A stretch of 64,000 nt of DNA from Fragilaria crotonensis. Its lineage: Eukaryota; Bacillariophyta; Fragilariophyceae; Fragilariales; Fragilariaceae. Under the pieces are notes generated by a model, which worked only from the letters and a program-made list of their open reading frames with translations, did not search any database and was not told the origin of the DNA. The position numbers and the translations under genes were made by a program. The stretch spans positions 19,935 to 83,934 of the forward strand of contig JAKSYS010000223.1 of NCBI GenBank assembly GCA_022925895.1, given 5' to 3'. Positions 1 to 40,662 of the stretch are shown here, one piece after another. Position 1 is the first letter of the stretch. The number at the start of each line of letters is the position of its first letter.

Positions 1-13
1 AATCGTTTACCAT

Positions 14-1362
14 TTAACATCTGCATGGTACTTTCTTCATTCTAGTGCTGCTGGTATGGCAGGGAACTCCTCTCTGTGAGGGATATAAGTTGTCCACTCT
101 TGAGGCAATGTTGCAAGCTTTGCCAGCATTTGTTCTTGCTTCTTGAGCACCCTGCTGGGAAGAAACTCCACCTTCGCCTATGACAGTACCCACCTGATCA
201 GCACATCGCCCCAACCCTTCAAGGTAGTGATGCCTTGTCAGCTTCAAGCAAAGCAGCGCTGTCTGTGCTTTGTCAAATATCTTGAGCAGCATGGCTGCCT
301 CACGTAGTATCCGAAGCTGGCCTGTTGTTGCTGTCCCCACAGTGTTACTCCTTACTGTACAATATGAGAATAACAGAAGTTTGTCCACTGTCTAGATGCA
401 GAGAAAGCTTTTTTACTTCTGAGCAGTTGCGCCAACTGTTCGGCATCAGTCAATGTCCTGTCAACATGAGGAATTGGTGCCTTTGGAATAGTTGCGTGAA
501 AAATCCCTAAGTTGAATCCATCAAACTCAAAAGAGTCAGTGAGAATATCATAGCCAAGTTGTAAGTTCTCAAGTCCAGCATCTTCAGTGTGTTGCCCAAG
601 CTCTTTTCTACCCCTCTTATTCTTCAGACAGCATCTTGTAAATGGCACAAACCACCCAACCTTGCTCCATGACATGAGAGTGAATCTTCTCCTTTGGGAA
701 ATGTACTGTATCAAATGGTCTGTCCGAGCCGATGTCATCGGCAGTGCCATGATTGATGGTTGCTGGCATTGGGGCAAACAGCATAAAAGCTGTTTGAGTC
801 CACATGAGATGGGCAACCATACCTAAGCAACTGTGATTATGGTTGGAAGGCCAAGCGACAAGCCAATCAACCTTGACACGAAAGTTGTCGTCCAATTTTG
901 CTGAGGAATCATTATGTAAAATTGTGGCAACGCCTCTCCCGGCTGCTGCTGCATTTGTTGGCTGCATATGTTCCTGTCACATGGTTGCCTTGAAGATTTG
1001 TCTCCTCTTGTTGCTCCTCTCTAGAACATTAGATTATGATACGACACAGCGCAAGAACCACGACCCTTGTCGCCAGTAATGATGTGCGTGGTCATGGTGA
1101 GTCTCTTCCATATTAATGAATAGTCTCTCTGTGTCCTTCTTGAATTGAAACGTTGACACCATGCGCCATTCTCGGCATCAAAGACATTTTCATCAACGCA
1201 TGACAAGGCCAGTTGCCAGTATGTCCTTCGCAACATCATCAAACCATTGGTTGAGATTGTCGTACGTCGTCCATTAAGCACGAGCATCTTCGACAGCAAT
1301 CTTTGTAGCTGCTTGAAGGGCGTCTGGAAACTCCGTTCATACCTTTTGCCAAAGTGACTCAA
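14..1362 (-). pseudogene. Decayed protein-coding remnant, family not recognised
   Basis: Read on the minus strand, four open segments follow one another in different frames: 1362-1021, 967-617, about 680-352 and 388-14. They overlap or nearly touch, and the sense of the reading jumps frame near 630-660, where HVMEQGWVVCAIYKML in one frame continues as a lysine/arginine-rich stretch in the next. This looks like one former coding region broken by small indels and stop codons. I see no motif that allows a family call. The left end may continue outside the window. An alternative is a spliced gene, but the segment overlaps do not match GT-AG junctions well. Confidence 0.35.
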
Positions 1363-1851
1363 CCTTCATCTAAAAAGCAAGTCCTGTACTATAGCAATAT
1401 ATATGTATTTTATTTTTGGGTTTCTACTTACTATATTTTGGGTTTTTCCGCACTATTTTATTCGTTGATACTGCTGATGTACTAGTCCCGTTTAGATATT
1501 CCGTGCTTTTTTAAGCACATATACTGCATAATAGAATATGGAATTCTTCAAAACATTATTACTTGCATCTGCGTTCTAACGCCCAACATCTGTAGAATTG
1601 AGAATACGGAATCCTGCTGATCAGTTAAACTGATATCTCTATTTGCTTTGTCCATAACATGCCTCCATTTTTTGGATAAAACGTAATCCTGTTGTACATA
1701 TTACCGTACTTAAAAAGGACAATAGTGGTATACCATACTTACATCAATAGCACTTTCATGTATCGGCTCACTAGTTATTCAAGTACAACTCTATCATCTT
1801 TGTGAATGTAAAACATGTATTCCAAAGACTAGTTGATATGATTAAACAATG
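1363..1851. other. AT-rich spacer without a supported gene
   Basis: About 490 bp of AT-rich sequence with short stretches related to TATTCCGTG and GAATACGGA. A CACTA pentamer at 1451-1455 could be a CACTA-transposon end, but no matching right end with equal 3 bp flanks was found. Confidence 0.4.
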
Positions 1852-3313
1852 CTAAATTGGAACCAAGCCATTTTGCAAAGCATCCCTGCATGATGTATCA
1901 ATCGGTCCCATATCATCGCGTGTAATGGTCTTGCGTTTCCTCGCATTGAGACGTGCAGGATTTACCTTCACAACGCGTTGACGCTCGAGAAACACATTCA
2001 GCAATTCATGGTTGAATGTCAAACCTCGTGCAATGCGGTCTTCCTCGACAAGATCATACAATTCATTGAACTTGCTTAGACCCTCTTCAGTCCATCCAAT
2101 CCCAGCTACACCATTGACGTCGTTACGTTGTTTGCGTGACAATGTAAATTTTGGTGCCTAAACAAAATTGCATTGTGAGCTCCGCATTTGGTTCATAAGA
2201 AAGTGTCGTGCCTGTCACTGAAATACACATTATAAACTCACCACTGTTTGGCTCACAACTAAAACACCGCCGCCAACATTGGCTTGAAGCTGTTGCACCA
2301 CGCCAATAATGTTGAATGTCAAGCGTTAGAACAAACAAATATCATTTATAATCAATGTCACTGTATTGTACGTACCTTTGATTGTTCACGTGCTAATTCT
2401 GACATCCATGTTTCTGTGTAGTTAAGCAACACAAGCAACATAAACGCTTCATCACTCATGGAAAACACAAAGTCGTTAAACAATGCTGCGCTGTCACCAC
2501 AATAGCGTGCCATGTTTGCTTTGTTATTCCAAATACTGTGTCCAACAATGCATGGTGCATAAATATCAATTAAATGCACGTAATGGACCAAGTTATCTCT
2601 CATGTCCAACATGTAATCCATATCAGCCTCTTTGCCATTGTTTATCTTAAAATGAGCGATTTTTCCACACATGCCATCTGCAATAATGTTTTTGAAGTAC
2701 GCTGTAAGCATTTATACAACAAAGGTCATAATTGCATTGCAAACTTACCTCGAAATCGCAGACGCATATTTTTAATGACATTGTTGCGACGATCTGTGTG
2801 AGTACACACAACCAATTTGCGCATATCTGCCCACCAATACTCGTCCGCGTTTTCTGCTTCAACGTTGCAATTTGCAATAATCATTGCACACACAGTTCCT
2901 TGGCGTCGATCAAACAAACCATGCACGTCTTTTTTGAAAAATTTAAGGCGACGAAACAATTTGGTCTTAACACATTCGCGTACCATCATGCGTTGGGAAG
3001 CAATTGTGTTTTGCAAATCCATGTTTAAAGGTACAATCGGATTGCCATGGTGCATTGCAACCGTTGGCGTAATGTCATTTGCGGCATTTAGCTTGCATTG
3101 CAAACTTGGAAGTGATGAATATCTATCAATAAATGAATATGCTTGCCTTTGTGGTTCCACAACTGCTGTCTGATTACTGTGCGTAACATCGGCCACCACA
3201 TTTGATTTGCAACTTAACTTATGGTAATGTGAGTTTTTATTCAAGACAGCAGGAAGTTCATCATCTAGCACTGACGACGGATCAAGCCAACCTTTCGAAT
3301 GCAATGCACTCAT
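1852..3313 (-). CDS. Four-exon gene of unknown function, possibly transposon-associated
   Basis: Four minus-strand exons join in one frame: 3313-2749, 2701-2376, 2289-2242 and 2157-1852. The introns are 2748-2702 (47 bp, GTAAGT...TTACAG), 2375-2290 (86 bp), 2241-2158 (84 bp, GTGAGT...TTTAG). The exon sum is 1245 nt, giving 414 residues and a stop. The N-terminal 190 residues include a basic stretch (KTKLFRRLKFFKKD) and an MIIANC segment. The middle is tryptophan- and asparagine-rich (GHSIWNNKANMARYCGD). The C-terminus has GWTEEGLSKFNELYDLVEED followed by a basic ARKRKTITRDD tail, which could bind nucleic acid. I do not recognise a named family. Composition and codon style match the transposase gene at 10-13 kb, so it may belong to the same mobile element (inference). 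The start is the first ATG of the longest exon. Confidence 0.6.
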
Positions 3314-4736
3314 GTTCAGTTATTCAATTTTATGTGATGAATTGGTTTTATGATTAATTTGGGCGTGCAATGTACACCAAATGGTAGTAAATGTGTGTTT
3401 ACATGATTCAAAAGTATTTTATTTAAGTGCAATGCATTACGTATCATGAAGACGTGCATTTAAAATCAACATGTGTGATTAAGATAGGTAGCTAGTCATG
3501 CAATTTGAATTTTACGGCAAATTGTACACAGTTTTGAATTCAAACCTTAATTGGTCGTGACTAATTGACTCCGACTTCTTTTTTATTGTGATGCTAACTT
3601 TGGCTTCTGATGACATCAGTTAAGTTAACCACAATTTTTTTAGTACGATTGTATTACATTTTTAGTGGTGTTTTACGCACTAATGTAACCGGTGGCTGTT
3701 GTTGTTTTACTTTGTTAGTTTGCAGTAGCTAGCATAACTAACTAGAAAACAAAACTATAACGCAATCGTTTGTACTGCCATTTTTTTGTATTGTTATCAT
3801 ACAACCTTTAAAGTAGTGACGTTATCTTGCGCATCTATTATCTAGGCTTTAGAAGTAGTCACAACAACATTATGCCTAGTAGCCAATTCGTTATTTGTCT
3901 CACATTTGTAATTGTCTTGTTCTGCAATAAAATATTGAAATTATAATCCAAGCATGTGTTTTGCACAAACGACATTAGCAATCTAACGCGAAGCAAAGGG
4001 TATGATTGCCATTGAAGAGCTTTATGGCGATGCATATAGGCTAGTACAGTGTCTACATGTAAAACAAGAAAGACCTCATCTTAAGTTTAGTTGTACTGGT
4101 ACCGTAGGAAAAGAAGGTCGGAATGCATGGTACTGCTATGGTAACATTACTGTAGTACCGTTACCATGATCGGACTTTAACCGTAAAACCCGTTAAATTA
4201 CCGTTAACGTGTCGAGATTTTCTTTGGGTACACAACTCCATCCATTGCACACTTCCTCAAGTGTGCTGACACTAACCTTGACTCTCCTTTCAATTTTCGT
4301 CCAAATTCGAATCTGTAAGTTTCATCCTGTCCTCTTATCTTGTGTGTTCAATGGGTGAGCGTTTTTTTTCATGTGAAAGGCAAGGTTGTTGTGCTTTTTG
4401 AAGTGTTGACATCATGTTTCTTTTGTTGCATCGATTCGTAACCCGGATGTACAAAAACTCTGTACCTACGTGTTTTTCACACTATCGTTGTACCAGTACC
4501 GTTAATTTTGTACTGTGACCGACTACTGGTAGTACGCGCCAAACACACGTGGTTCCTACTGCATGGTGGTACGAGTACTGTGCTACATTAAACAACGCGC
4601 ATGTACTGTAGACAGAACATACTGTTTATGGTTCTACTATCCATGCCGCTGTTGATGCGCTCATACTCTTACAATGAATGTGTAATTTATTTGCTGATTT
4701 GTTCGCTGCTTCAATGTTTTTACTTCTCATTCTTAC
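3314..4736. other. AT-rich intergenic region
   Basis: About 1.4 kb without a supported ORF. It is AT-rich up to about 4080. From about 4090 to 4600 it has recurrent short ACCGTTA and GTACCGTA words, which look like degenerate subterminal repeats of a mobile element or simple-sequence drift. Nothing else is seen. Confidence 0.4.
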
Positions 4737-4836
4737 AACTTTCATTTCTCCCAGCTTTGGACCTGCCTTGCTGTGCTTCTTTGCATCATTACAATCAGCA
4801 AGCAAGTGTTGTTGTTGATTTCGATTGATTCACGGT

Positions 4837-5280
4837 TCTGTTGCTGCATCACCTTGTTTTGTGTGTGGACACCAGTCACCTGCGAGGATCTTGCTCGAAA
4901 GAGTAGTGTGCCTACACGTCGTGCCTTACTGGTAAAGCCCACATTACTTGGTTGGTGCAGCAGTCCTATTGCTCATCGTAGGACCGTTCAAGAAATTGGA
5001 CGTCTTTGAACCTGCCTTGTTTTGATCGATTTGGACAACTTCATTTTGCTCTGACGCAATTGATTGACTGTTGTGAGAACACAATATTTGTTGCTTTCAT
5101 TCTCCACATTGCTCTGTTGCTGCATCACCTTGTTTTGTGTGTGGACACCAGTCACCTGCGAGGATCTTGCTCGAAAGAGTAGTGTGCCTACACGTCGTGC
5201 CTTACTGGTAAAGCCCACATTACTTGGTCGGTGCAGCAGTCCTATTGCTCATCGTAGGACCGTTCAAGAAATTGGACGTC
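4837..5280 (+). repeat. Near-identical 168 bp direct repeat upstream of the acetyltransferase-like ORF
   Basis: The 168 bp at 4837-5004 recur at 5113-5280 with a single visible mismatch (GGTTGGTGC versus GGTCGGTGC). Weaker similarity before each copy (CCTGCCTTG near 4763 and 5012) suggests a tandem unit of about 276 bp. The second copy ends 48 bp before the first ATG (5328) of the downstream ORF, so the repeat is in its promoter or 5' leader. Near-identity points to a recent duplication or to selection. Tandem 5' repeats are common in promoters of mobile elements (known in general; inference here). Confidence 0.8.
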
Positions 5281-5327
5281 ATTGAGGATTGTGAAGCTTG
5301 CACACAACAAACTTTTGTTTCTTCGAC

Positions 5328-6398
5328 ATGATGAGTGCCAAAGATTTGAGTAGTGAGCTGCTCGGTGAAATGGATACAGAAGCAGATGTGGCAGCTTCGG
5401 CCTTGTCAGATCTTGCAAATGCTGAATCCATGCAAGGGCTCGAAGTAATGGCCGAAGCTGCTCGTGAGGCTGAGCCTCACCTTCCTTTCCCAAATAAAGG
5501 CATTATTGATCTTGTGGAAGGTGACGTTGAGGTTGTTGTCACTGTGTCAAAAACAATCAATGCAACTTTGATCTTGGATTCTGTGTATCAATTCGATGGA
5601 ACAAAGGAGTTGGTAGGCAAGCTGAACCATAAGCAAAAGCGTGGTGTTATCAATGCATATTTGCGTGGATTGGAAGTTGGCTTCGTTGAACAGAACTTGA
5701 CACCTTTTCGGAATTGGTACAACGATTTGCGTTTTGCAGATGCAATTTTCAAGCCCGAAGACCATGAAAATAAAGTTTGGCACCTACGGCATATTTTATT
5801 GCGTTCGCAATCTGTGGAGAATGTTTCATTTGGAACAGCTCCAAGGATCTTTTATTCCAGTGCTCGACGATTTTACGAGACCATCTTCCATGCCTCTGTT
5901 TCGATGGAAGAGCAAATTGAACGCGCAATGAAAGAGGACATTACTCTTTTGATTCTTGCTTTACGCATCGGCAAACAAGTTGCTGTCCCCAAATCCTTCT
6001 CGCCATATTCACAGCAATTTGCCACTGTGTCAGCTGTTTCATTTCAAATGCATCGTGATCCAATTGATGCCGGAAATATGTCTGTTTTTCTTTCCCTTTT
6101 GGGGGTGACTCATCATTCAACAAATCACCCACCTTCAATCCAATCCTGGCGCCGCAATGGAGTCGGCTTGTTCATGTTGATACAGGTCATTAAACGGTGT
6201 GCATCTGTAGACGATGTCAAGAAGATTGAAGTGTTTGTTCAGTGTTCAGAGCCTGCTGCATTCCACTTCTACACAATGATTGGTTTTCGCCGGATGAACA
6301 AGAGTGAAACAGATGATGCTGGTTTTGGAATGCTTCCTGACCATTTGCAAACTGCTTTGCGAGGACAGAAACCATCACCTTTTAAGCTTCCCAAGTGA
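5328..6398 (+). CDS. GNAT-like acetyltransferase domain protein, possibly the N-terminal part of a larger polyprotein
   Basis: The protein is about 356 residues from the ATG at 5328 (an open frame extends to 5298 without ATG). The C-terminal third carries two hallmarks of the GNAT N-acetyltransferase fold. One is an R/Q-x-x-G-x-G acetyl-CoA loop (WRRNGVG, about residues 274-280). The other is motif B (AAFHFYTMIGFRRM, about 310-323), after a beta strand KKIEVFVQCSE. The N-terminal half is acidic and unassigned. The substrate is unknown. The stop at 6398 lies in the middle of sequence that continues sensibly in another frame (a SDDSKQTVCPILMHLPHGR stretch from about 6390), so the ORF may once have been fused to the following Ulp1-like protein. 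Its neighbours, two protease-like ORFs and a transposase, argue for a mobile-element cargo gene. A host acetyltransferase is the alternative. Confidence 0.6.
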   Translation: MMSAKDLSSELLGEMDTEADVAASALSDLANAESMQGLEVMAEAAREAEPHLPFPNKGIIDLVEGDVEVVVTVSKTINATLILDSVYQFDGTKELVGKLNHKQKRGVINAYLRGLEVGFVEQNLTPFRNWYNDLRFADAIFKPEDHENKVWHLRHILLRSQSVENVSFGTAPRIFYSSARRFYETIFHASVSMEEQIERAMKEDITLLILALRIGKQVAVPKSFSPYSQQFATVSAVSFQMHRDPIDAGNMSVFLSLLGVTHHSTNHPPSIQSWRRNGVGLFMLIQVIKRCASVDDVKKIEVFVQCSEPAAFHFYTMIGFRRMNKSETDDAGFGMLPDHLQTALRGQKPSPFKLPK

Positions 6399-6399
6399 C

Positions 6400-8646
6400 G
6401 ATTCTAAGCAGACGGTCTGTCCAATTCTTATGCATTTGCCTCATGGTCGACTAAAGCACCTTACAACTGCATTGCCCGCCGACGACGAGCAGAAGAAGGC
6501 TGGCGAAAGTCTGAATGTGGCTCCAAGAGTTCTTCCGTTTTGGTGTCAATACCCCTCCTCGGTTAATCGGCGGTGGAAGATTAGTGTATGCACAAAAGAT
6601 GCGGAGAGTTTATTTGCATCACTTCCATTGATTTGCAAGCTGTTTCCCTTCCTTTGGAGCCATTGTTGCCAGCGGATTCCCTGAAGCTTAAAGGTGAAAT
6701 GACGCTGGCACGCCGCAAACAGCATACTTCAGACAGAGGAATGAAATGGTTTTCAACAGGTGAGATTGATTTGATGCTTTCGATTTTATCTCTTGATGGA
6801 AGGTACGAAGATGCGGCTTTCATCTTGCCAGTGCATTCCTCCAACACAATTAAATCTGGGTTTCGGCCACGCACGTTTGAAAGCATTGCTTCAATTGGAA
6901 AAAGACAATGCAGCAATGCCGCAAACGCAACTTGCGGAGTTGATCTTCAACATTTTGAAGGCGGATTCAAGCTCCATTAAGAAAGCGCAACAGGTGCAAC
7001 AGGATTACATTGTGAACCACATCATTGAGCGAAATCCAGGCTTGCTCTCTAAGAAGGTGTTAGTGTTTCCACAAAACGAGAATGGAAAACATTGGAGTGC
7101 TACATTTGTCTTCAATCCTGGAAGCATTTGTGAGAATGTGGAGGACATTGAGAACACCAACAACTCCCTGCGACCGTGCTTTTTCCGTTATTGCAGCATT
7201 GACCCTCTCGGTACGCGCCAGGTGGCCATTGATACCGGTATCATATGGTTTTTGAATTTGTGTTACAGCAACGAAATTCACGAAGAAAGCATGCCCGCAT
7301 CAGATGCTCCAATGAAGTGGCTTTCCCCATTCGGGAAGAAGTTTGAAGGCAATATGCTTGGAACAAAATCTTTTCCTGCTTTGCGCATTGCAGAAGAAAA
7401 TATGTTACCAAAACAAGTGGACGGGTGTAATTGTGGCTTAGGCATTGTTGCTGCCATCGGTATCATATTGAGAAACATTTGCAGTGAGAAAGTGGAGCAA
7501 ATGTCTTTCAACGAACAGTTCGGGCGTCAAACCAAGTGGGAACTTCATGAAGATGATGAGACAAAAGAGTGTTTTGCCTATTTTGATAGGCGATTCTTTG
7601 AAGCACTCCCAACGAAGAAAGATGACTTGATATTTGCGGATTACCTAACCATGCTCCGCTTAGAATGGTTTGTTGTGTTTGACCGCATGGCTGCGTTGCA
7701 TTTTGACGTGCTACCAAAACGAGTCAACAAAGACAATTTGGTCAATCCATTATACACTGACACCTTGAGGTCTACCCTCAGTTGGCCAGATTTTGACAGC
7801 ATGAAGAAGCGTCAGGCAATGCCAAAAGGTAAACTTCGCAAACTTGTTAAGGAACTTGAAGACGATGCTAGAAAGGAACGCAAACCTCAATCCAATCCTC
7901 GTTCAACCGCTTCTGCTGCAATCGATATCACGCAGAGTCCGGATAACAATGCCACTTTTGATTTATCTTCCTCAGGGAAGAAAGATTCTGTGTCTATGAT
8001 TCCGAAGTCAAAGGCAACAATCGATTTATCTTCGCCGGATAGGAAACCTGCTTCGACGAATGTGACTGATGCTGATGTCATTATGCAAAATGCACTTGAA
8101 GACACACCTGTGAAGATAAATGCTTCCGAGGATGCATTGGCTGACAAAAGTGAGGAACTAAAAGATACTCCCACAAAGACGGAAGGTGCCAATGAAGATG
8201 AAGATGAAGAGCAAAAGGTCACAATTGAAAGGATTGAAGATCTTTCACTCCTCACACCTGTCGTGCTCCACGTTCACACACCCACCAAAAAGCGCAAAGG
8301 TGGTGATTTGTTGAAAAGATTACAACTTGATGATGTTTTCTTTGAAGACAAGAACGATGAAGAACCCAAAGGCAACCTCAAAGTTGACAAGGATGATGAC
8401 AATGCTGATTACACTGTGCTTTCGAAAGAGGCAAAGATGCATAAGGTTTCCACTCAATCCACAGGTACTATTGAGGCTTTTTATCGTAAGTACCACGCCA
8501 CGTCGGCCACTGATGATACAGTCATCGCCATTGACAAAGCTTTCAAAACGCAACTGGCTACCTTTATTGCGGAAAGCTTCAAAAATGGAAATGGTCGAGT
8601 GAAAAGGATCACCAGAAGACAATTGAGCACTGGGCAAAGAAAATGA
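6400..8646 (+). CDS. Ulp1/C48-type SUMO protease-like protein with SUMO-interacting-motif-like repeats
   Basis: The main open frame is 6793-8646 (617 residues). It has the order and spacing of the C48 (Ulp1/SENP) cysteine-protease core: His in NGKHWSATF (residue 100), Asp in YCSIDPLG (137), Gln in LPKQVDG (208) and Cys in GCNCGLGIV (214). The N-terminal part of the domain (KWFSTGEIDLMLSIL, the substrate-side helix of such proteases, then AAFILPV) lies in a different frame at 6588-6850, so the true start is upstream and at least one frameshift or unseen intron sits between about 6840 and 6900. After the protease come three IDL-type segments (AIDITQSPD, TFDLSSSG, TIDLSSPD; residues 376-413) that resemble SUMO-interacting motifs, then an acidic region. 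Ulp1-like genes are known passengers of CACTA and Mutator elements. The end overlaps the next ORF by ATGA, and that ORF's frame stays open upstream to about 8590, so both may be one broken protein. Confidence 0.65.
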
Positions 8647-10025
8647 AAGCCAAGGATTGCTCTGAATCTAAGAGGGAATGGATTCGTGAATTGATTAAAG
8701 GTATCAAAGAAGAACGGGCTCAGTTCACGAAGGAGTTGACAAATGAATTCATGTTTACCCGTCTAACGATGGTTAAGGGTCTTCGATTTGAAAAGGCTAA
8801 CAACAGCTTTTATGCTCGTTTGGTGTACCAAGAACCAGACGAGTCCCATCCTAACAAAATGGTAGTTGCTGAAGAAGAACTCAAGGTTGAAGAGGAGTGG
8901 GTCAGAAGTGAATATGCTGAAATCGACATTCAGCACATCATTAACATGCATCAAACAGACAAGTGGACTGACGTTCCACGAGATGTGGAAGTGAGGATTG
9001 CAAAGCATAAAGTCGTCCGGGTCCGATATGTCCCTCCTAAAGTTCGTCATGTTCTCGATTATGAAGCAATGGCAAAAGTCATTAATGAAAAAGATGTGAC
9101 GAATGCCAAACGGCGGAAGAAACTTGGCTTTGATGAGCTTCAGACAAGCACGATTGGGAAAGCATCTCTGATGGATCAGGCCATTCCAAGACGACGCAAT
9201 CCTCCAATGCAATATCCTCCTCCCACGCCGTCAAAGATTGCTAAGAACCCAACAGAGGCAGCAGAAAAAAAGCGCTTGGAAAAAGAGGAGGCAAAGTGGC
9301 AAAAAAGTATCATTCGCAAGCCTGTCTCATCAAATTGTAAATGGGTCGGACGAATGGAAAACAATAAGGAGACCAATTTGGAAGAAGAATTTGTGGGTAT
9401 GGCATTTGGCGAAGCATTTGTTAAGGAATTGAAGTTGTCGGGCAATTTTCGTGGATTTGTGGATGTACCTGTTGGCGATTATAAGCCATCACATCTTCAC
9501 CATCATCCAAACTTGCAACGTTCTGGTGCGCCTGTGGTCCATTTTAATCAGACTGATGGCAAAGATTTGTGTGTGTCAAAGTCTCTTGCATCCGCTCTAT
9601 TTTCCATTGGGTTTCACAAAGAAGCATCTATCATTGATACTTTTGGTGAAGAAATATTGAGAGGTGCTGTCGTCGATGCTTTGGAGAATGTTGTGAATCA
9701 TGCACGATCCGTTCTTCCTTCTTGGATTGTTATTCGTCGCCTGCCTCACCGTTTCGATTGGAAAGCTGGTTTGGATGCACGTCACCTCTTGCTTGGTGTC
9801 TTGAGTGCATCCGACGGAAGCTGTTGTCATGCTGTATGCATACATGGAGGTTATGTATATGATGCAAACGAAACAGTTGCCCTTCCATTGTGTGACGAGG
9901 CATTAAATTATTGCACCTCTACTCCATTGGTGAAAAGTACATTTGTTGGGTTTCGGCGCGGGTATATTTTTTGTTATGAAGGACAACGAAAACAGAAACT
10001 TGCAAGAATGACTTTGCAAGCTTGA
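8643..10025 (+). CDS. Papain-like cysteine protease-like protein (Cys-His-Asp/Asn), mobile-element cargo
   Basis: 460 residues. The N-terminal 260 residues are highly charged and partly coiled-coil (WIRELIKGIKEERAQF; EAAEKKRLEKEEAKWQKS). The C-terminal 160 residues look like a papain-fold hydrolase. A Cys starts a small-residue helix (DLCVSKSLASAL, C310), a His begins a strand (CCHAVCIHGG, H396), and an Asp/Asn pair follows (YVYDANE, D407/N409), then a hydrophobic C-terminal strand (FRRGYIFCYEG). The fold call rests on motif order only; a transglutaminase-like or OTU-like relative is possible. The reading frame is open upstream of the ATG through EHWAKKMKAK to about 8590, so it is likely a continuation of the preceding Ulp1-like ORF after a one-base shift rather than an independent gene. 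It converges tail to tail with the transposase gene, 61 bp apart. Confidence 0.6.
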   Translation: MKAKDCSESKREWIRELIKGIKEERAQFTKELTNEFMFTRLTMVKGLRFEKANNSFYARLVYQEPDESHPNKMVVAEEELKVEEEWVRSEYAEIDIQHIINMHQTDKWTDVPRDVEVRIAKHKVVRVRYVPPKVRHVLDYEAMAKVINEKDVTNAKRRKKLGFDELQTSTIGKASLMDQAIPRRRNPPMQYPPPTPSKIAKNPTEAAEKKRLEKEEAKWQKSIIRKPVSSNCKWVGRMENNKETNLEEEFVGMAFGEAFVKELKLSGNFRGFVDVPVGDYKPSHLHHHPNLQRSGAPVVHFNQTDGKDLCVSKSLASALFSIGFHKEASIIDTFGEEILRGAVVDALENVVNHARSVLPSWIVIRRLPHRFDWKAGLDARHLLLGVLSASDGSCCHAVCIHGGYVYDANETVALPLCDEALNYCTSTPLVKSTFVGFRRGYIFCYEGQRKQKLARMTLQA

Positions 10026-10086
10026 CTAGAGTGGCAAGGTTAACTCTTTACATATAACTACATTTTTATGCTCACTTGAAACATTA

Positions 10087-13067
10087 TTAGTTGGCTGACT
10101 CAACTGGTTCAGTAAATTCGAGTGCCCACAAATGGCGTGGCAAAGTTTGAAGGATTTTCGAACCATCATCTTTGATTGATATAACAAAGCATGGACCTTC
10201 AATGTCCTTTGGTTCGATGACACTTAAGTCTTTAGACATCTCCCATTCTGTAAGCAATACCGATTTAATGCCGGTTGGTGCTTTTCCAAATTGAACCACC
10301 AATCGGAAAGGTTGAGGATTTTTGGTAATCACAACAATGGCCAATCGGCACGGCAAACTTGAGACAACATTATTTTTTTTGTTTGTTGATCTGACATTCA
10401 TCCAATCGTAGACAGAACCACCAGATTGAAATGATGGATGGCAACGATATGTGAATGATCCGTGCCGCAATTCAGTGCACATACGAACGTTAGAACCAAA
10501 TTGGTGTGAAACAAATTGTAAAACATTGTCGGGGATGTGCATCAAGGAAACTTTTGTTTGTGTATGCCAACACAACTGATATCCGGTTTTGAAATCACAA
10601 GTCAATGTTGCAAATGTTGCGTTACCAGTACTCGTTTCCGGCACAATATTAATGCAAGGAGTTTTTACATGTGAAACGTTTGATCTGACATGGTTGGCAG
10701 ATGTATCCCAAATCCGTGTATAAACTGCATTTATCATAAGCGAATATGACAATCGTTGAGCGGATTGTAATTCGTAAGCAGAACCATTATGACGCTTTTG
10801 AGCTCGTCGTCCGGGTTTTTTGGCAACTGGAATCAACAATGATTCGGGACGCTGCGCGCAATAATTTATAGGCGCACCAAACCGTTCAATATTGTCAAGT
10901 AGGTGCAACAATTCATGAAATTTTGGAAATTTCCATGACTTGCCGTTAGCCAGTGGTATGTCATCAACACACATTTGCAACAATGTTTGTATTGCTTTCT
11001 GAACAACAAAGATGGATTCTGCATGGTGCTGTTTGGTCCAATACGTAGCTTGATTCAGCCATTGATCAAAACATAACAGAGCCTCAAATACGGCAAGGAC
11101 AGCCGGAAGGTCAACTGATGGTTTTGGCAAAGTGACGACAGCATCATCAGTTGTAAGCACTGCTTTAGAGTGTTGTGCGTCGAATGTCGATTGCAAAATC
11201 TGCCAGCCTTCATCGTATTGCGCAAGAATAACAAACAGAAATACCAAGCCCAGTCGTTCCGATGCTGATATTTTGGTTAAATTGGTGATGCCTTGGCTAA
11301 AATCGGTTGCAGGAAATGTGCTGCGAATTGTTTGACGATGCGTTCGGTGAAAGCGTATTGCCAGAGCATCTAGCGCAGCCAATTTGCTTGGTGGAACGTT
11401 CTCAAGAACCAAAAAGGTAACCATTTCAATCATGCCTTTTCGAAAAGCATGCATAGTCTCCACGGGAGTTGATCCATAAATTCCACGCAATGGGTCTGCC
11501 ATTGGGACATAATCAAAGACATTATTCAACTCATGTTGTGACCACCGTTTGCGAATGTCCACATCGCCATTGTGTGCTATTTCCGAAACTTCAGAAGCAT
11601 TCAAAAAAACACATTGAACGTATGGATTGTCAAGCTGCTCGTAATTTACATCACAAGCACGACAATGGCGTTGAATTCCTTTGCCGTGCGACCCAAAGCG
11701 ACCACACAACATATCACCTTCTTGCATATCCTGAATAACAAAAAGGATACAAGTTATTACGTCCACTTGCATCTTACCATAAGGACCAATGGGTAATAAC
11801 ACGTTTGTCAAGTGGGGACCTGCAATACACATTGATCGCAACACTGCATGTAACTGGGCATGGTAATTGCGAATGTTATCACCTTGTTTCATGTTTGTTT
11901 GATTTTGTGCGGATGATAGTTTTGGTTTTGGAAGAAACCCATGATATCCCCATGCTTGTATTGTCCGACGAAACTCTTCTTTAAAAATGGCAGGTGAAAA
12001 CATGTAAGGCTTCAATGAAAATCGTGCATTGCCAGTAACATGAGTGCGGTCAATCCATTGAATAATTGGAACAAATAGTTGTCGTGTTGGATCGGTGATC
12101 ATGCGGTCGTATGCATTGCGATAAACACTCCCAGATATTGCATCACCAAGCCTTCCATCTGGGCTTTGATATGGTTTTAATGGGTTGCACAAATCAATCA
12201 AGAGATTTTCAGCGGTCATAATGGATGGATTTTGTAACAAATTGAGTAGCTGAGGGCAAATTCATAAGCGATGACTTCGCACGGAGGACCATGTGGAACA
12301 TTGACAGGCAACACAGAAGGCAACAGTTTCTGTGCATTTGTTACTGACTTGAACAATACATCAACATTTTTCATGCGCGATTGCCCACCATCAGGATAAA
12401 ATGAGTACCCATCAGTTTGGGCGTTGCGCGCCCATTTTAAGACCGATTCAAATGCGTAATCAGGTGCATTGATGTCATCCAATATCTTTAACAAAGAAAT
12501 GGTCCATTTTTGATCTGTAGAAAACATGAATGATTGCGACGAAGCAATCGTATCATGTTGCATAGGACATGATGTTTCTTCAATTGTATCGTCCACAAGA
12601 ATTTGAATATCATGCTGCATGTCGTCAAGTATTGTTTCTTCCTCGATTTCCGAGGTCAGATTGGGCAGTGCCGCAAATGGCAACGAAGGAGGCGCCAAAC
12701 GCGAGATATCGTTCACAATTTCGCAACGCAATTGTCGAGGCCGTTTTGTAGTGGTAAAGACAGTGTCGTCAAAAGTTGCATTGGCACAATGTTGAACAAT
12801 TGGGGCGGTCGGCGGGTGGGTCTGTTCGCGCCGAACAAACTCCAAACACAGCGGAGACCGCTGAAAATGCATTGTAAACGCCTTTTCAGTAGCAAATGAG
12901 TTGCGACGGCTCATGCAATGTGGGTTGTAGCATACAAACAGAGACAACATCATGTGGCTGTTGTTTGATTTTGACATGACTTGTATTGTGTGGAATATGT
13001 AGTCTTGGTTGGATGCAAACAAGAATGTACGTGCGTGCTTGCTAAAGAATCCATGTGGCACAACCAA
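10087..13067 (-). pseudogene. CACTA/Plavaka-like DDE transposase, split by one frameshift
   Basis: Two minus-strand ORFs overlap in different frames: 13067-12216 (283 residues) and 12240-10087 (717 residues from a non-ATG codon). The first has a C/H-rich segment near its start (FVCYNPHCMSRR...MHFQRSPLC) that could be a zinc finger. The second has features of Plavaka/Tnp2-type transposases: VPIIQWIDRTHV with the first acidic residue (D64), QDMQEGDMLCGRFG (D171/D176), a CRACD cysteine pair, and STPVETMHAFRKGM (E261/H264). Sense changes frame near 12245-12255, where EFALSYS in the first frame should pass to QLLNLLQNP in the second, so a single-base indel is likely. A programmed shift or tiny intron is less likely. 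It is presumably inactive unless the shift is corrected. The three plus-strand ORFs to its left may be its cargo. Confidence 0.7.
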
Positions 13068-15570
13068 CAGCTGGCTTCAACCAAATACCACTCAGATTGG
13101 TAGGCAGTAGCCAACCAAGCAAACACACAAACACGGATAATTATTGGAAACTGGTTATGCACACTAATAAACAGGAAAGACTTGTCTGAGCGCGCACCTA
13201 TGTAAGAAAGTTTAACCTCGTTTATCCGTACTGGCATTAAAAAAACCTACAAAAATGTCTATATGTATTCGTAGACTTAATTATGTACAGAAAAGTAAGT
13301 TTGTTGAAAGTCACAGAAGACAACTACTGTTTATTTACTTTTACATACGCGTTTTTTTAGTTCAGGTATATGAATTATTTTTATAGTAGGAATACGTAGT
13401 GTCTGTTATGTACTTTGAGCAACCAAATATGAATTTTTAATGCGTTGTACGAGTTCAAATATTCATAAATACTGCATTAATTCAATTTTGGGTCCTTAGA
13501 TGTTGTAGGCATTGGCATGTGAAGTTCCCACCATGGAAGCCGTTGGTCCCATCCTTAAGACAGAATTCAATGTTGAGTCTGTTGCAAATTTTTCCAACTG
13601 CCTTGCCAGTTTTGGAGGCAACAAGATTTGTTGCATTCTTGAAAGGTATGGTATACCCCCTGTCATCACCATAGTCCAACAACTGTGTTTACTTGCTTCA
13701 AGTTTATGTGCACTTCTTGCTTGGGCAAACGTCAACTAGCTACGCTTAGTCAACTGAGATGCTGAGCTTTTCTTTGTTCTGAAGCTTGCTGATGACGAGG
13801 TAGTGCAATTCGTTGTTACTGGCGACATGATTCTCAAATTGTTGCCGTTGTTGTCTCCTGCAATGTCTATAACCATATCAATTCATGCCTGAATTGACCT
13901 CCTAATTAAGTTGTTATAATTACAGTAGAGAGTCGATAGTGGAATAACTCCATGCAGATTGCAAGCTTTAATTGCTTGTTGGTGGATGGTGAGTCATTGA
14001 TGATGGCCTTTCGGATTTTGTGGAATGATTTTGCAATTGATGTTGACTTTGCTGCCACGGTATTGCATATAGTAAATACCAATTGTCCGCATCTTCAACA
14101 TTGCACTGGAGTGTTGGCCAACCAAAAGATAGTACTGACCTGGACACTGGAGCCCTAGTGCCCTGCTATGCATGAACAGACAAAGAACAGCAAGGCAAGA
14201 AGCAGACTTTGTCCTACCTCTTTTTCAACTGGGCTGATGGGGCTCATGCAAGATGAGTTCCTCTGATATATTCATGAACTATTGTTATGCTGAAACTGGT
14301 GCAACTTAGTCCAGCATTCAGTAAAAGTCAAGCATTTCACAGTGCAGAGCTACAAGGAGGCTTCTTATGGAACACACAGTTGTGTGCTTAGTCTTGGAAC
14401 ATGCAAATCTCAGCGCTCTTCCACCACCAACGCTGCGGCAGAGGCATTGGATTAGCTACAGTTGCTCAAGAGAAGCAAAGTTGCTGATCAAATCTCCCCA
14501 GCATCAAGATTACTATATCTTGAATATGAATCAAACAAACTCTGATCATCTTGTTTACCTGGCTACTAGTAGCTAGTACTAGCATGATTGTGGCGATTCA
14601 AGTGCACATGAGTGAGCAAAGGCCCACGAAAATCTTCTTTATTTGTACCTGAAGATTCTAGAAAATATTGTGGATACTATGTCAACAAGAATCTCAACTT
14701 GCCAAACCAAGCACATTGATCGGGAGCCGGGCGAAGTTGTGCCTTGTTGCGTGACACAAACAGAAAATGATTTGGGTTGCTGCTGCTGCGTCCATTACAG
14801 TTGTTGAGTTGGAGTGTGGGTGTGGAGATTTCAAGGTTGTGGAGCCTTCAACACTACATGACTTTGACAAAGCAAGACCCCCTTTGCTTGCCCATCATGC
14901 CACTCAATGCAGTGTAACCAAACACTATTTGCATTGAAAACACACCAGCTAGTTTCTTGATCCAGAGTAATCACTGGTGATTACTTGTTCAGCTTGTGCT
15001 GGCCAAGAATGAGGACATGATAAAAGAAAGTGCAAAAACCAACAACTGTTGCTTACTTTGTAGTAAGAGGTAGAAGTTCCTTGTGTATAGTATCTGTTAG
15101 TAGGAATAGCCAGCCATTTGGATGGGCAGTGTGAGGTGTGTTGATGTGGAAAAGCAAGAATTTGTGATAAAGTGTACTACTGAGTACAAGGAGATGTGTA
15201 AAGCACTGGCATCATTCAACACATGAGCAGAAGCAAGGACTGGGAATTTCTGACAATAAGGACTGAAGTTGATGATGAAAGGAATGAGATTATGCACATG
15301 GCTGACAGGATGACATTGTCATTTGTGTTGATTGGTAGAAAACAGTGTGCAAAAGTGTTTGTGAAGAGTTGGCATGCTGGCTGGTGATAAACGGTGTTGT
15401 CGTACATGTTTGAAAATATGATGAGTGTTATAGTAGAAATGACAAACATGAACATAGTTTTGTGATTTTGAAATCATTTTTTGTGACATAACAAATAACG
15501 TGTGGTTTTCCTCTATATAGCGGGTCATTCTTTGGTGTTGCTTATATGTTAAAAATGAAACTTTGAACGG
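13068..15570. other. AT-rich region with no supported gene; possible decayed coding shreds
   Basis: About 2.5 kb. Short open frames exist (for example 13735-13496 minus and 13952-14158 plus), but none shows a recognisable domain, intron structure or consistent codon signal. The stretch 13500-14580 has the look of a long-decayed coding sequence; 14600-15540 looks noncoding. A TAGTG at 13397-13401 was considered as the right end of a CACTA element and not accepted. Confidence 0.4.
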
Positions 15571-15799: not shown

Positions 15800-18130
15800 A
15801 GTTCTCTGCCCCGTTTGGATGACCCATATTCGATCATTTATTCGCAAGAGACATGCCTACCTGTGCCAAGAAAAGATTTATATATGCGCTCGTGACTATT
15901 TCATATACGTGTCAATGCTTTGTTGGGAGAACTTCAGACTTTTTGGTCCGTTGCTTCTACGTGGCAGACATAACAAGGTGAAGGTGGACTTCAGTCACTC
16001 GTCCAAGGTCGTCGAGTGACCTACTCACAGATGTTAGATCACTGAATTATGTACCCTTCCAAATCACAAAAAATCGAATCTCTGGAACTCAGCAACAAGT
16101 GAAAATTAGCAAGCGACGTTCCTTCGATTTACCATGCAGATCACGTACCTCTTGCTTCTCGTCCTACTGGCATCTGTTACGCTTGTCATGTCTGACGATA
16201 CCTCTACCTACAGCTTCACCTTCGAAATCGCGATGACTGGGCCTGTAGGCGTGTGTCCCAATGCCGCCCTGCTCACAGTGGCAACAAGACTTACGAAGAG
16301 CGTTGGATTAAACATCAACCAATACTTATACAACCAAGGGTACACAGGTCAAGTCACCAATCTAACTCTCACTCCGCAGGGAAGTGAGCGTTTTCTTGGT
16401 GAGACAGGTAACTACGAGTCCATAGCCCTGGATTCCTTTATCGATGAACAAAGCAACGATGCTGAAGTTCGAAAACTCCTTGCCTTGTATACTTGGAAAA
16501 CGGGGGGTGCTGCTATCTGTCGTCTTTGCCCGCCCCTAGACGCGGATGCAAGACGTGTACTTCGCCGCCTGCAGACTTCACGCCCTGTTTCAAAGGCAAA
16601 GATAAGCGCTTACGTGAATGCCAGAATTACGGGTCCTACTCAGAACCTCATACAGAAGGTCAACACCACCACTACCACGTGCAACCCATCTTATGACCAA
16701 TGGACCTCCACATTCAGTTGGACTTAAACTCTAAAGCCCACTCGTATTTGAAAATACAAGATATAAAAAAGAAAGCTTTACCTTGTCGTTTACCACCGTA
16801 GCATAGGCCTTATGCCGTACATCACACTCGTACGTCGTATGGATATCGAAACTCAACAAAAGTGCCGATCAAGATATCAAGATTCTTGACTTGACACTTT
16901 TTTCCGCGTAGTGTCTTCATAAACACAAAATATCGCACCGTTGAAGTCATCCGCAAGGGAACTCAAACCTGCTGGTCGCGGAGTCGGGTCGGGAAGTAGA
17001 TGAAACACGAGAAACCGAAAGCTGGCTCGATGAGAACTGCGAACAACAGCACCGCGGAAACAAGAAGAAAAGAAGGCCGGATACATTTGGATCAATCGCG
17101 AATGTGCGTCCACGGAGCCTGGCACCATTCTTGCATTGGCTGTGCGTCCGCGAGGTTAGTGAACGCAGCTCTATTACCAGACAGCTGGATCCTGGATCGG
17201 CTATGGAAATCTTCACGTCCATATCATCAAGTAGAAGCTCGTGAATTTATGAGAGTGCCTTGGTGACAATGAACGGACACAAAATGCAGCTTTCTCACTT
17301 TGACAGTCTCCTTTCATCGGCTGACACCGTGTCAAGCATGTATACGGTCAAACTTGACCAGAGATCGGTTCATGGATCTCAGCCTCGCATACGTATGGAC
17401 CACATCAATACCCGACTACGGTAGGCAGTGCTCTGTGCGAGGACGAAACTGTAGGTTGACACTCGTCCCAAAAGAAAGCAACCGGTGATCAAAGCACGTC
17501 GATTGGCGACCGTTCCGATGATTCGTCAATACCCCGTCGGCACTGTTGCGTGCAAGTTTACCAGGACGGAAATGTAAGTGTCAATTCGTTCCAAGAGACC
17601 ACAATCGGTGATCAAGCCCAGTTCGGTTGGCGACCGTGCCCCGTTGATTTTGGGTTTGTCTCTTGAAACAATTCGCATTTGGCTGCTGGACTGTGGGTCT
17701 ATCGAGACATGTGTGCACTTTCCTCTGAAGAAACGCCAAGCCTTCTCCGTTCGAGCTAGTGCTGTAATGTCATGGTATACTCAAAGGCCGATCCACCGAA
17801 TCAGGGCATAACCTGACTTACATCAAGTGCCGTAATGATTGGCTCATGGGGAATTGCACTTTGGTATCCAAGGCGAATATCAAGACTGTTTTAAGCGAGG
17901 ACACTTGCATGCTTAGGTCGACCCTGAAATCGACGCCATTCAGAGCGCCAGAACACGGACGGGACGCATTGCATTGTACCTTCTCCGCCAGACTCTGAAA
18001 CGTATGATGCCATCGTCTGTCCGTGACCTTGGTGCTCACTCATCATGAGTTGCAAAGATGTCTCATGGAAATCGAAGCGAAACGCGAAACCGCGATTGGT
18101 GCCTTCGGGTGGTGCAGAAGCTGGAATCGG
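15800..18130 (+). repeat. Tandem segmental duplication, unit 1
   Basis: This unit of roughly 2.3 kb is similar to 18340-20347 plus 30814-31020. Anchors in both units are the word pair GATGACCC...ATCATTTATT (15820 and 18355), the secreted-protein CDS (16134 and 18600), GATCTCAGCCTCGC (about 17377 and 19873) and GACGCATTGCATTGT (about 17960 and 30857). The offset varies between about 2.39 and 2.54 kb, so indels have accumulated and the duplication is old. A TGCCTAC heptamer is repeated about four times at 18222-18248, at the junction between the units. Confidence 0.75.
16134..16727 (+). CDS. Small secreted protein, paralogue A of a tandem pair, family unknown
   Basis: 197 residues with a clear signal peptide (residues 1-20: basic-free hydrophobic core LLLLVLLASVTLVMS, cleavage expected after MS). 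The mature part has few cysteines: one in GVCPN, a CRLC pair in AAICRLCPPLDADARR, and one near the end (TTTCNPSYDQW). NLTL and NTTT are possible N-glycosylation sites. The conserved block WKTGGAAICRLCPPLDADA is almost unchanged in the paralogue at 18600, so it is probably functionally important. I know no family with this block. The ORF is intronless, and a putative poly(A) region follows the stop. Secretion to the cell surface or medium is inferred from the signal peptide only. Confidence 0.75.
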   Translation: MQITYLLLLVLLASVTLVMSDDTSTYSFTFEIAMTGPVGVCPNAALLTVATRLTKSVGLNINQYLYNQGYTGQVTNLTLTPQGSERFLGETGNYESIALDSFIDEQSNDAEVRKLLALYTWKTGGAAICRLCPPLDADARRVLRRLQTSRPVSKAKISAYVNARITGPTQNLIQKVNTTTTTCNPSYDQWTSTFSWT

Positions 18131-18599
18131 GGTTCTGGAGATATCAGATGCGTCATTGGGTTTTCTCCGGAAAACGTCACGAAGGCTAAAAACGTGCACG
18201 CTATAGAAGAGTTTTCTGACTGCCTACTGCCTACTGCCTACTGCCTATACGCATGAAAGCCATTTGGTGGTTTGCATTTTCCATGTTTGATTGTCCTGTA
18301 AATGGAGAAGCTTACTGAGATGTACACTCAAATACACTATTGGAAAGACACTTCGGATGACCCAATGTCAATCATTTATTATTCGAAAGAGACATCCGAT
18401 GGTGTGCAATGTAACAATACATATCCGCTCCTAAGTACGAGTAACTGCAATGTGAGAACGTTTTGTTCCTGGAGTCTGGGTCATTACTCGAGCATCTTCG
18501 CTCCCTACACTCCGAAACACTCACACAAACGTACTCGATTGCCTGCAACTCGACTACAACTGAAAGGTTTCAACCGAAGTTCATTCGATAGAGTTTACC

Positions 18600-19196
18600 A
18601 TGCGGATCACATACCTCTTGCTTCAAGTCCTACTGGCATCTGTTACCCTTGTCATGTCAGTCGATACCTCTACCTACGGCTTCACGTTCGAACTCGCGAT
18701 GACTGGTCCAGAAGGCGCGTGTTCCGACACCGACCTGGACACAGTAGCAACAAAACTTACAAACCAAGTGGGATTTACCATTAACCTATTCTTTTCCAGT
18801 CAAGGGTACCCAGGTCAAGTCACCAATATAACTCTCGCTCCGCGGGGAAAGGCGCGTCTCCTTGGTGAGGCAGATAACTACGAGGCCACAGCCATGGATG
18901 CATTTGTCGATGAACAACAAAGCAACGATGAGGGATTGCGAGAACTCCTTGCCTTGTATACTTGGAAGACGGGGGGTGCTGCTATCTGTCGTCTTTGTCC
19001 GCCCCTAGACGCGGATGCAAGACGTGTACTTCGCCGCCTGCAGACTTCACGCACTGTTTCAAAGTCGAAGATCAGCGATTTCTTGAATTCCAGAATCACA
19101 ACTCCTACTCAATTCCTCATAAAAAGGCTCAACACCACGAATACCGCGTGCAACGAATCTTATGAGGAATGGACCACCACATTCAGTTGGACTTGA
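18600..19196 (+). CDS. Small secreted protein, paralogue B of a tandem pair, family unknown
   Basis: 198 residues, collinear with the 197-residue protein at 16134 with one extra residue after FVDEQ. It has the same signal peptide pattern (MRITYLLLQVLLASVTLVMS), the same GACS cysteine, the same CRLC block and the same C-terminal TTTFSWT. Differences are spread through the middle (YLYNQGYTGQ versus FFSSQGYPGQ), while WKTGGAAICRLCPPLDADA is identical. That suggests purifying selection on the block and an intact second gene. A copia retrotransposon begins 1152 bp downstream of its stop and may affect its 3' context. Confidence 0.75.
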   Translation: MRITYLLLQVLLASVTLVMSVDTSTYGFTFELAMTGPEGACSDTDLDTVATKLTNQVGFTINLFFSSQGYPGQVTNITLAPRGKARLLGEADNYEATAMDAFVDEQQSNDEGLRELLALYTWKTGGAAICRLCPPLDADARRVLRRLQTSRTVSKSKISDFLNSRITTPTQFLIKRLNTTNTACNESYEEWTTTFSWT

Positions 19197-21113: not shown

Positions 21114-21764
21114 ATGAGTGCCTCCGTAAACACGGCAGCGGCCTCCGCCGTCAGTAGCATCACCGACGCAACGAGGACAGGCGGACGATCCGCCGGAGGG
21201 CGAGGTCGCGGAGGGCGACGCAACCGTACTAGTGGGACCGGCGGCACCGGCCGCAGCTCCGCGGGTCGAAGAACCAGTACTTTCAAGGGTGCTACCGCGG
21301 AGATGAATGCGAATGTTTTTGAGTGTTTTGAAGAACACGGAGACCGCCGTCAGTACGCGAAAACCATCGAGGCCCTTGAAGGGTACATGAAGAAGACGAT
21401 GAAGTATTCGGAAGATCTGGCCCCCTTGTTTGCACCGGAGATGTCCTTGCCGCGAGTAACATATCCAAGAGACCCGGGACCGAACCCCAGCAGAGTGGAA
21501 GAGGCCATTTGGAATGAAGAAACAAGGGAGTACGTGAAACGTGCTCGAGCCCTCATCGGGAACCTCGCGACCGGAATGGCAGTCATATGGGGACAATGCA
21601 GCGAAGCAATGAAGTCCAAAGTCAAGTCCCACGGCCAGTTTGCCGAGAAATGGGCCGAAAACGACTGCGCATGGTTACTCCGTGAAATCAGAGCCGTCAC
21701 ACTCCAATTCGACGAAAAGAAAAACCCTTTCATGTCCCTTTGGATGCCAGAGCCAGCTTCCTGA
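21114..21764 (+). pseudogene. gag: Gag (N-terminal part) of copia element 1, ends at a frameshift
   Basis: 216 residues. The first 60 are glycine/arginine-rich (GGRSAGGRGRGGRRN), typical of nucleic-acid-binding termini. The rest is helical Gag sequence (YAKTIEALEGYMKKTMKY). Reading MSLWMPEPAS-stop at 21733-21764 is out of frame. One extra T in the CCTTTGG run near 21738-21742 would give MSLLDARASFLNC and continue in the next ORF. A one-base deletion is therefore likely. A programmed shift is less likely, because the break lies within Gag and not between Gag and Pol. Confidence 0.75.
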
Positions 21765-24700: not shown

Positions 24701-24978
24701 GCGTCGCCGACGGTGTCCACGGACGCGCTACTCCTCACCATCCTGATCGATGCGTACGAACGACGTGATGTCGGGACGGCGGACATAGTCGGTGCCTACC
24801 TTAAAGCCCAAATGGATGATTTTGTACTAATGAAATTCACCGGTGAGTCCGTCGACATTCTGTGCAAAATGGATCCGAAGTATTTGAACTTTGTGACCAT
24901 GGAAGGAAACACGAAGGTTGTGTATGTCCGATTTGTGAAGGCTATATACGGATGCGTAAAGTCCGCCCTACTATGGTA
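21740..24978 (+). pseudogene. pol: Gag-Pol of copia element 1: zinc knuckle, protease, integrase, start of reverse transcriptase
   Basis: Numbering from the codon at 21740. The end of Gag carries a CCHC knuckle (CFNCNNMGHYSVDC, residues 166-179). The aspartic protease has LLDSQST (D216) in place of the usual DTG or DSG. The integrase has CVDLFF (D437), VHCDHEFEC (D494) and VGEVERSIRTIKER (E520 or E522), a pattern I associate with diatom copia elements. An acidic linker contains a twice-repeated DNLDEDQGAPP and further DQGA units (24165-24290). The RT starts around 24590 (ASPTVSTDALLLTIL ... GTADIVGAYLKA) and is cut after LLW-Y at 24978 by the TA-flanked transposon. The 77 bp after that belong to the transposon end. 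Confidence 0.85.
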
Positions 24979-25112
24979 TGGCTGGTTTCACCCTCAACCC
25001 TCCTCGCGTATGCCTTGGTATAAAACGTACGACGCATACATTATCCCAGAGTAAAATTCCGCCGAATAATTCTGCAATCCGTATCTTTTATAAATCCATA
25101 CAATTATCGCTC

Positions 25113-37854: not shown

Positions 37855-37862
37855 CTTTAACA

Positions 37863-40606: not shown

Positions 40607-40662
40607 GCGACGCAGAACGCGAGTCGCAGGCTCCTCGACCGATAGTCAAGCGCTGCGTTCGG

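Follow-up and report, generated by a model that had tools for sequence, protein, structure and literature searches.

Plavaka transposons form part of the CMCT clade of CACTA/EnSpm-like elements and were described in fungi (PMC12730594), with further reports from an ichthyosporean (PMC11244446) and a green alga (PMC12633428). We analyzed a 64,000-nucleotide stretch of the diatom Fragilaria crotonensis (assembly GCA_022925895.1, contig JAKSYS010000223.1, positions 19,935 to 83,934, forward strand; hereafter the window), which harbors a Plavaka-like element whose cargo is, very probably, one polyprotein with an acetyltransferase domain of the GNAT type and two cysteine protease-like domains. The element resembles Plavaka in its PF18759 transposase, its CATC...GATG ends, and its 2-bp target duplication, and it shows three features given for the group in the accessible text of PMC12730594: a C(2)C motif, an H(3-4)H motif, and a target duplication of 2 or 3 bp. 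Its ends, CATCT..AGATG, share four of five bases with those of PlavakaB (CATCA..TGATG; PlavakaA has TGT..ACA). Some fungal Plavaka families likewise carry extra chromatin-related enzyme genes, in their case TET/JBP (covered here by Pfam scans of the named open reading frames, or ORFs), in place of the GNAT/Ulp1-like/papain-like polyprotein (PMC12730594).

Transposons of other groups are known to carry Ulp1 or OTU domains. VANC/KIU of plant Vandal Mutator-like elements (MULEs), associated with hypomethylation and containing an Ulp1 domain (PMC13317346), offer a precedent for a transposon-encoded Ulp1-domain factor tied to escape from silencing; however, their transposase belongs to a different superfamily, and the accessible part of that report describes neither a GNAT nor a papain-like domain. 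Ginger1 is a cut-and-paste transposon with a domain of the ubiquitin-like (Ubl) protease type, either OTU or Ulp1, but that domain is fused to a Gypsy-integrase-like transposase, with one protease type per family (PMC2836005, in the part available). CryptonS and CryptonF of oomycetes and diatoms carry an Ulp1-type gene (C48 peptidase), yet they are tyrosine recombinase elements (PMC3212892, same limit). The enlarged EnSpm of the red alga Chondrus, 16-20 kb with 4-5 ORFs, is likewise a large multi-gene element of the CACTA type (cited in PMC6431247; compared here without ORF content). The open-access literature searched, with most subscription papers outside its scope, yielded no GNAT/Ulp1/papain fusion in a transposon and no description of such a fusion in fixed order selected across very divergent families of one genome.

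The element and its copies

The features of the element are as follows, in window coordinates.

1367-13502 (12,136 bp; strand not applicable): whole Plavaka-like element, ends 5'-CATCTAA...TTAGATG-3', TT on either side
1852-3319, minus strand: gene A, of unknown family, with at least three exon-like ORFs (2726-3319, 2358-2711, 1852-2157)
4836-5009 (model core 4853-4958), plus strand: folded leader RNA, copy 1, from folding z-score, covariation, and model R1
5112-5285 (model core 5129-5234), plus strand: folded leader RNA, copy 2, its end 42 nt upstream of the polyprotein ATG (5328)
5328-10025, plus strand: putative polyprotein gene, ~1,565 codons from ATG to stop, frame-broken in the window copy
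5571-6395, plus strand: GNAT acetyltransferase domain region, from a Pfam profile, a PDB profile match, and the acetyl-CoA motif
6700-7743, plus strand: Ulp1-like (C48-like) cysteine protease-like domain; weak PF02902 match, N-terminal motif in another frame here
9315-10022, plus strand: papain-like (Cys...His...Asp/Asn) protease-like domain, from its residue set and a ratio of nonsynonymous to synonymous substitution (dN/dS) of ~0.09
10087-13076, minus strand: Plavaka-like transposase (PF18759), convergent with the polyprotein, split near 12253 by a 1-nt indel

The genome searched comprised 62.1 Mb in 881 contigs, and all genome counts are lower bounds. Copies in contigs C259, C407, C872, and others share the edges of the element and differ in their flanks. 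On the right, every close copy ends at ...CCTTAGATG, and the left edge CATCTAAAAAGC recurs in the window copy (C140), C259, C407, and the five sister copies for which a left flank was retrieved; these shared edges place the element at 1367-13502. The mobile element is thus larger than the range, 5328-13067, covered by an earlier sequence-only reading of this DNA, which also contained neither the true ends, nor gene A as a fourth gene, nor the folded RNA that is conserved ahead of the polyprotein. The same reading had looked to shared terminal repeats: the ends proved common across copies, but a search for terminal inverted repeats of useful length gave a match of only 7 bp, CATCTAA/TTAGATG. 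Identical 2-bp flanks occur in five of the eight copies with both edges read (TT in C140; TA in C259, C131, C106, and C147) and differ in C407, C620, and C200. When the flanks of the window copy are joined over one TT, the joint is crossed by 13 of the 24 matches among those listed, and four aligned paralogous matches present empty sites (three CTT|GT, one GTT|GT) with a single TT, which shows the 2-bp target duplication (TT). The insertion target itself (window 1-1366 and 13503 onward) is an older repeat with many copies in the genome.

The stretch 5000-13500 is complete in four places: the window, C259, C407, and C167. Searches with the same query recovered a C872 copy ~94% identical from base 195 of the query onward, a partial match of 90% in C307, and a sister group of elements at 70-75%. 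The three close copies are 99.79, 99.80, and 99.66% identical to the window over the compared stretches. Across ~8.5 kb, the four close copies carry 6 single-copy substitutions (4, 1, 0, and 1) and, by our own count, 28 indels of 1-2 nt, often within short single-base runs; this excess of indels suggests residual long-read assembly errors in repeats or very recent decay, and it calls for caution with any reading frame taken from this assembly. The few substitutions and the different flanks indicate recent movement. The element is a cut-and-paste DNA transposon of Plavaka-like type, recently mobile and one member of a large family. Its transposase matches PF18759 (E=1.8e-13, 50.8 bits against a cut-off of 26.3) and is split in the window into minus-strand ORFs 10087-12261 and 12216-13076; the larger has C(2)C as CRAC at residue 200 and H(3)H as HELLH at 449, and the C131 copy reads SRAC at the C(2)C motif.

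A probable single polyprotein in a fixed module order

The window presents consecutive plus-strand ORFs (stop-to-stop 5295-6398, 6775-8646, and 8535-10025) facing the convergent transposase, as the sequence-only reading had described. The frame changes that it placed near 6390 and 8600 are real and sit at small between-copy indels (6379, 6553, 6593, 6645, 6864; 8580). Only the window copy has the breaks near 6600-6864, while the breaks at 6379 and 8580 recur in some copies but not in others. Spliceosomal introns were considered as the cause of the frame changes and rejected, since other copies read through, differing by 1-2 nt.

Longer frames survive elsewhere in the genome. GNAT and Ulp1-like domains lie in one ORF in C872 (1145 aa), C874 (1132 aa), C106 (819 aa), C449 (1414 aa), and C686 (914 aa); an 821-aa ORF of C259 runs from beyond the Ulp1 Cys through the linker and the papain-like domain; and linker and papain-like domain share one ORF in C131 (627 aa) and C686 (567 aa). 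The earlier guess of one product of about 1500 residues therefore holds in that overlapping ORFs from different copies tile every module junction, but no copy among those examined holds all three modules in a single ORF.

The coding sequence is constrained throughout. By the Nei-Gojobori method (own script; synonymous sites near saturation, dS 1.0-1.9), C872 against C874 gave dN/dS values of 0.19 for the N-terminal part, 0.16 for the GNAT core, 0.21 for the GNAT-Ulp1 junction, 0.12 for the Ulp1-like domain, and 0.33 for the linker. The first four segments gave 0.15, 0.18, 0.25, and 0.13 for C872 against C106. For C259 against C131, two linker pieces gave 0.25 and 0.07 and the papain-like domain 0.09. 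The value for the transposase was 0.10. In comparisons with C449 and C686, which are more distant, synonymous sites were saturated in most segments (pN/pS 0.49-0.67). Purifying selection acts on all segments tested, with the junction among them. The overlapping ORFs of other copies and the selection across the junction make it very probable that the transposon encodes the modules as a single polyprotein, most likely of about 1,570 residues.

The set recurs across the genome. Searches listed 102 places for the papain-like domain, 78 for the Ulp1-like domain, 90 for GNAT, 90 for the transposase, and 111 for gene A; 65, 55, 58, 51, and 92 of them, respectively, were entered for clustering after extra pieces of one locus had been dropped, together with several weak, isolated gene A matches (E above 1e-4). 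Grouping of matches within 6.5 kb gave 65, 55, 58, 51, and 91 clusters in the same sequence. At least 45 loci contain at least four of the five modules (28 all five, 17 four), and wherever two or more modules are present they follow the order GNAT> Ulp1-like> papain-like> transposase<, a genome-wide recurrence that exceeds chance association. The sequence-only reading had tied these ORFs to a neighboring transposase, and the copy search bore it out: the order was always the same, and separate, unlinked proteins lacking a transposase nearby were not seen. Modules outside the set are scarce, with five clusters of the papain-like domain alone, one of the Ulp1-like domain, and one of GNAT. Families diverge down to ~34% amino-acid identity over the GNAT and Ulp1-like domains.

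A folded leader RNA shared by many copies

A folded RNA is conserved upstream of the polyprotein. The 174-nt sequence occurs twice in the window, the two copies being 98.8% identical, and it is 89-92% identical in the sister group, against 70-75% for coding DNA. Its folding z-score is -4.50 for copy 1 on the plus strand and -1.06 on the minus strand, -3.63 for copy 2, and -4.15 for C874. The core alignment comprises 19 sequences, 14 of them distinct, in about three groups, and supports 25 base pairs; 97.1% of its cells are paired, against 89.5 in shuffles, and its covariation score of 0.265 (0.129 in shuffles) was reached by 0 of 500. The matches of model R1 upstream of the tested families with gene A on the left score 89.6-119.9 bits, many of them also having built R1; window copy 1, at 119.9 bits, is itself among the model-building sequences. 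Further copies lie at L031:2428-2537, L093:845-955, and elsewhere. A 20-21-base core pattern occurs 46 times in the genome, against 0 for a backward control. Forty of these sites lie no more than 2.5 kb upstream of a same-strand GNAT match, at 27 loci, 13 of which have two copies; four others (C380, C825) are within ~2 kb of gene A matches, and two (C61, C872:93728) are near no listed module.

Several results weigh against the fold. Eight pairs changed on both sides, a number reached by 12 of the 500 shuffles; every one of the 500 showed more further pair types than the real alignment; and the structure came from the same 14 distinct rows, in about three groups, on which it was then scored. 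In addition, R1 gave no match in five upstream stretches (L104-L108) and a weak one in L103 (E=0.069). A coding role for the repeat was set aside, its differences being base-paired and not at silent codon positions (codons read by eye).

The probable role of the folded RNA is to control how the polyprotein mRNA is translated or processed. Rfam 15 returned no match at the gathering threshold in the window and none at E<=1 in 4000-5400. We know of no precedent that we could name for structured leader RNAs of DNA transposons, although no search aimed at one was made. Showing base-pair covariation and lacking a counterpart in Rfam, the leader can be tested in its own right.

Domains of the polyprotein and their possible role

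We tentatively favor a reading, somewhat short of an even chance, in which the polyprotein is a helper or anti-silencing factor acting through SUMO/ubiquitin deconjugation and acetylation. The transposase would excise and insert the element; the polyprotein would be made in the host cytoplasm and act in the nucleus, where one or both cysteine protease-like domains would remove SUMO- or ubiquitin-type modifiers from target proteins, and the GNAT domain would acetylate them. The targets would be proteins involved in silencing the element or in repairing the sites of its excision and insertion, a mode like that proposed for Ulp1-carrying VANC/KIU of plant MULEs and for OTU/Ulp1 of Ginger. Manipulation of SUMO or chromatin acetylation, which the sequence-only reading had also suggested, may be the outcome. 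This reading draws on the fixed order in 45 loci, purifying selection, the conserved acetyl-CoA motif and protease residues, recent movement, basic stretches in the linker, and the VANC/KIU, Ginger, and Crypton precedents. The basic stretches (KKRK/KKKR/KRRKK) are found in five of the six ORFs examined, C449 having none, and we take them to be compatible with nuclear import.

The GNAT assignment is supported by profile and motif. The window copy matches PF13673 at E=2e-4 with 21.7 bits against a cut-off of 23.6, thus 1-2 bits short, and the best of ten copies reaches E=1.3e-5; PF13673 appears in 6 of the 10 rows and PF13508 in 7 at E<=0.1. The profile finds human NAA50 in the PDB (E=1e-4), and RRxGxG and FY..GF are identical in 10 of 10 rows, the former agreeing with the R/QxxGxG/A acetyl-CoA motif, so that the GNAT motif pair of the earlier reading stands.

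The two protease-like domains are less easily placed. In the Ulp1-like domain the motifs follow in the right order, His is kept in 13 of 14 rows (one gap), and Gln and Cys in 13 of 14, the remaining row (L062) being out of frame there. PF02902 matches the window ORF at E=0.04 and C872 best, at E=0.0053 and 17.0 bits, with 4 of 14 rows at E<=0.1. No C48 chain occurs among the PDB matches of the profile, and the profile found no confirmed relative in a viral contig collection. An AlphaFold model from the single sequence without alignment has a predicted local distance difference test score (pLDDT) of 33.4 and a predicted template-modeling score (pTM) of 0.20, and Foldseek gave no match for it at E<=0.001. 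In the papain-like domain, Asp100, Cys102, His188, Asp199, and Asn201 are identical in 18 of 18 rows, in the Cys-His-Asp/Asn order. Its profile found no relevant PDB sequence and no confirmed relative in viral and genome contig collections that include no eukaryotes; its model, built in the same way, has pLDDT 35.9 and pTM 0.34, again with no Foldseek match at E<=0.001. Since profile, PDB, and fold searches gave no usable match and the two models were themselves unusable, "Ulp1-like" and "papain-like" are used here as motif-level names.

Several points weigh against deconjugation by these domains. No Ulp1-like row reaches the PF02902 cut-off of 20.7 bits. The Asp position varies over the 14 rows (D 3, E 4, H 3, R 3, Y 1), so that the full His-Asp-Gln-Cys set named in the sequence-only reading is reduced to His, Gln, and Cys. 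Alignment with hhalign to the Mutator-type C48 domains of the same genome gave a probability of 0.8%, little more than the two control alignments (0.23 and 0.55%). The papain-like assignment holds at the level of motif: the Cys-His-Asp/Asn set of the earlier reading is there, but no relevant Pfam family matched in the 18 rows at E<=1. The roles of Ulp1 domains in the precedent transposons are themselves unproven experimentally, as far as the accessible parts of those reports go (PMC13317346, PMC2836005, PMC3212892).

The bolder version of the helper reading, a three-enzyme polyprotein (acetyltransferase and two Ubl-type cysteine proteases) serving as a dedicated anti-silencing machine under its own leader RNA, the latter a new RNA family of regulatory or self-processing nature, seems to us doubtful, at perhaps one chance in four. 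Somewhat less probable is that the protease-like domains mainly act on the polyprotein itself, releasing GNAT, Ulp1-like, and papain-like products in the way that viral polyproteins are processed, and that these parts then assist transposition. A continuous reading path, two protease-like domains, and long linkers of low conservation would suit such processing, yet no conserved cleavage motif was seen (Gly-Gly occurs in some linkers, not in C449 or C686), and transposon Ulp1 domains are not described as processing enzymes in the accessible text of PMC2836005 and PMC13317346. We give a like, low weight to the proposal that the Ulp1-like and papain-like domains have lost enzyme activity and bind Ubl-modified or chromatin proteins, GNAT alone being active. 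The free variation at the Ulp1 Asp position, next to a Cys fixed in 14 of 14 rows, and the sub-threshold profile matches agree with binding; the strong selection on the Ulp1-like His, Gln, and Cys and the papain-like Cys, His, Asp, and Asn does not.

It is rather improbable, in our judgment, that the polyprotein serves transposition itself, for example in end-repair, replication timing, or target choice, and not escape from silencing; the polyprotein always adjoins the transposase, and the Ginger authors suggest repair-related roles (PMC2836005, accessible part). Nothing specific speaks against this view, and the present data do not distinguish it from the helper reading. That the domains are captured host gene fragments, passengers of no function for the element, is very improbable: capture of host genes is frequent in transposons (PMC13317346, accessible part), but purifying selection, constant order despite deep divergence, and the few modules outside the set all speak against it. 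Should the polyprotein prove to block silencing, as in the favored helper reading, the element would offer a compact system for testing how transposons edit host protein modification.

Gene A and other features

Gene A likely contains a 47-nt GT-AG intron (2748-2702, from GTAAG...TTACAG), and it has no Pfam match at E<=1. Relatives occur at the 111 listed places, and the gene is linked to the other modules: one set of families has it to their left and on the opposite strand, another to their right. It occurs without other modules in 32 clusters and may for that reason be shared with other transposons.

Elsewhere in the same genome, ORFs at L002, L004, L007, and L008 give a better C48 match than the polyprotein does; their partner sequence presumably resembles a MuDR/FAR1-type DNA-binding part, and these loci are probably Mutator-like transposons with Ulp1 genes. 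Within the window, long ORFs at 21686-25054, 33984-35390, and 37805-40645 resemble, by eye, pol/integrase parts of Copia-type retrotransposons. The ORFs at 16110-16727 and 18564-19196 are similar, with signal-peptide-like starts and a shared GGAAICRLCPPLDADARRVLRRLQTSR stretch, and form a tandem pair from a protein family that may be secreted. The heat-shock-factor-like ORF at 46781-47917 has, to us, a diatom-like look.

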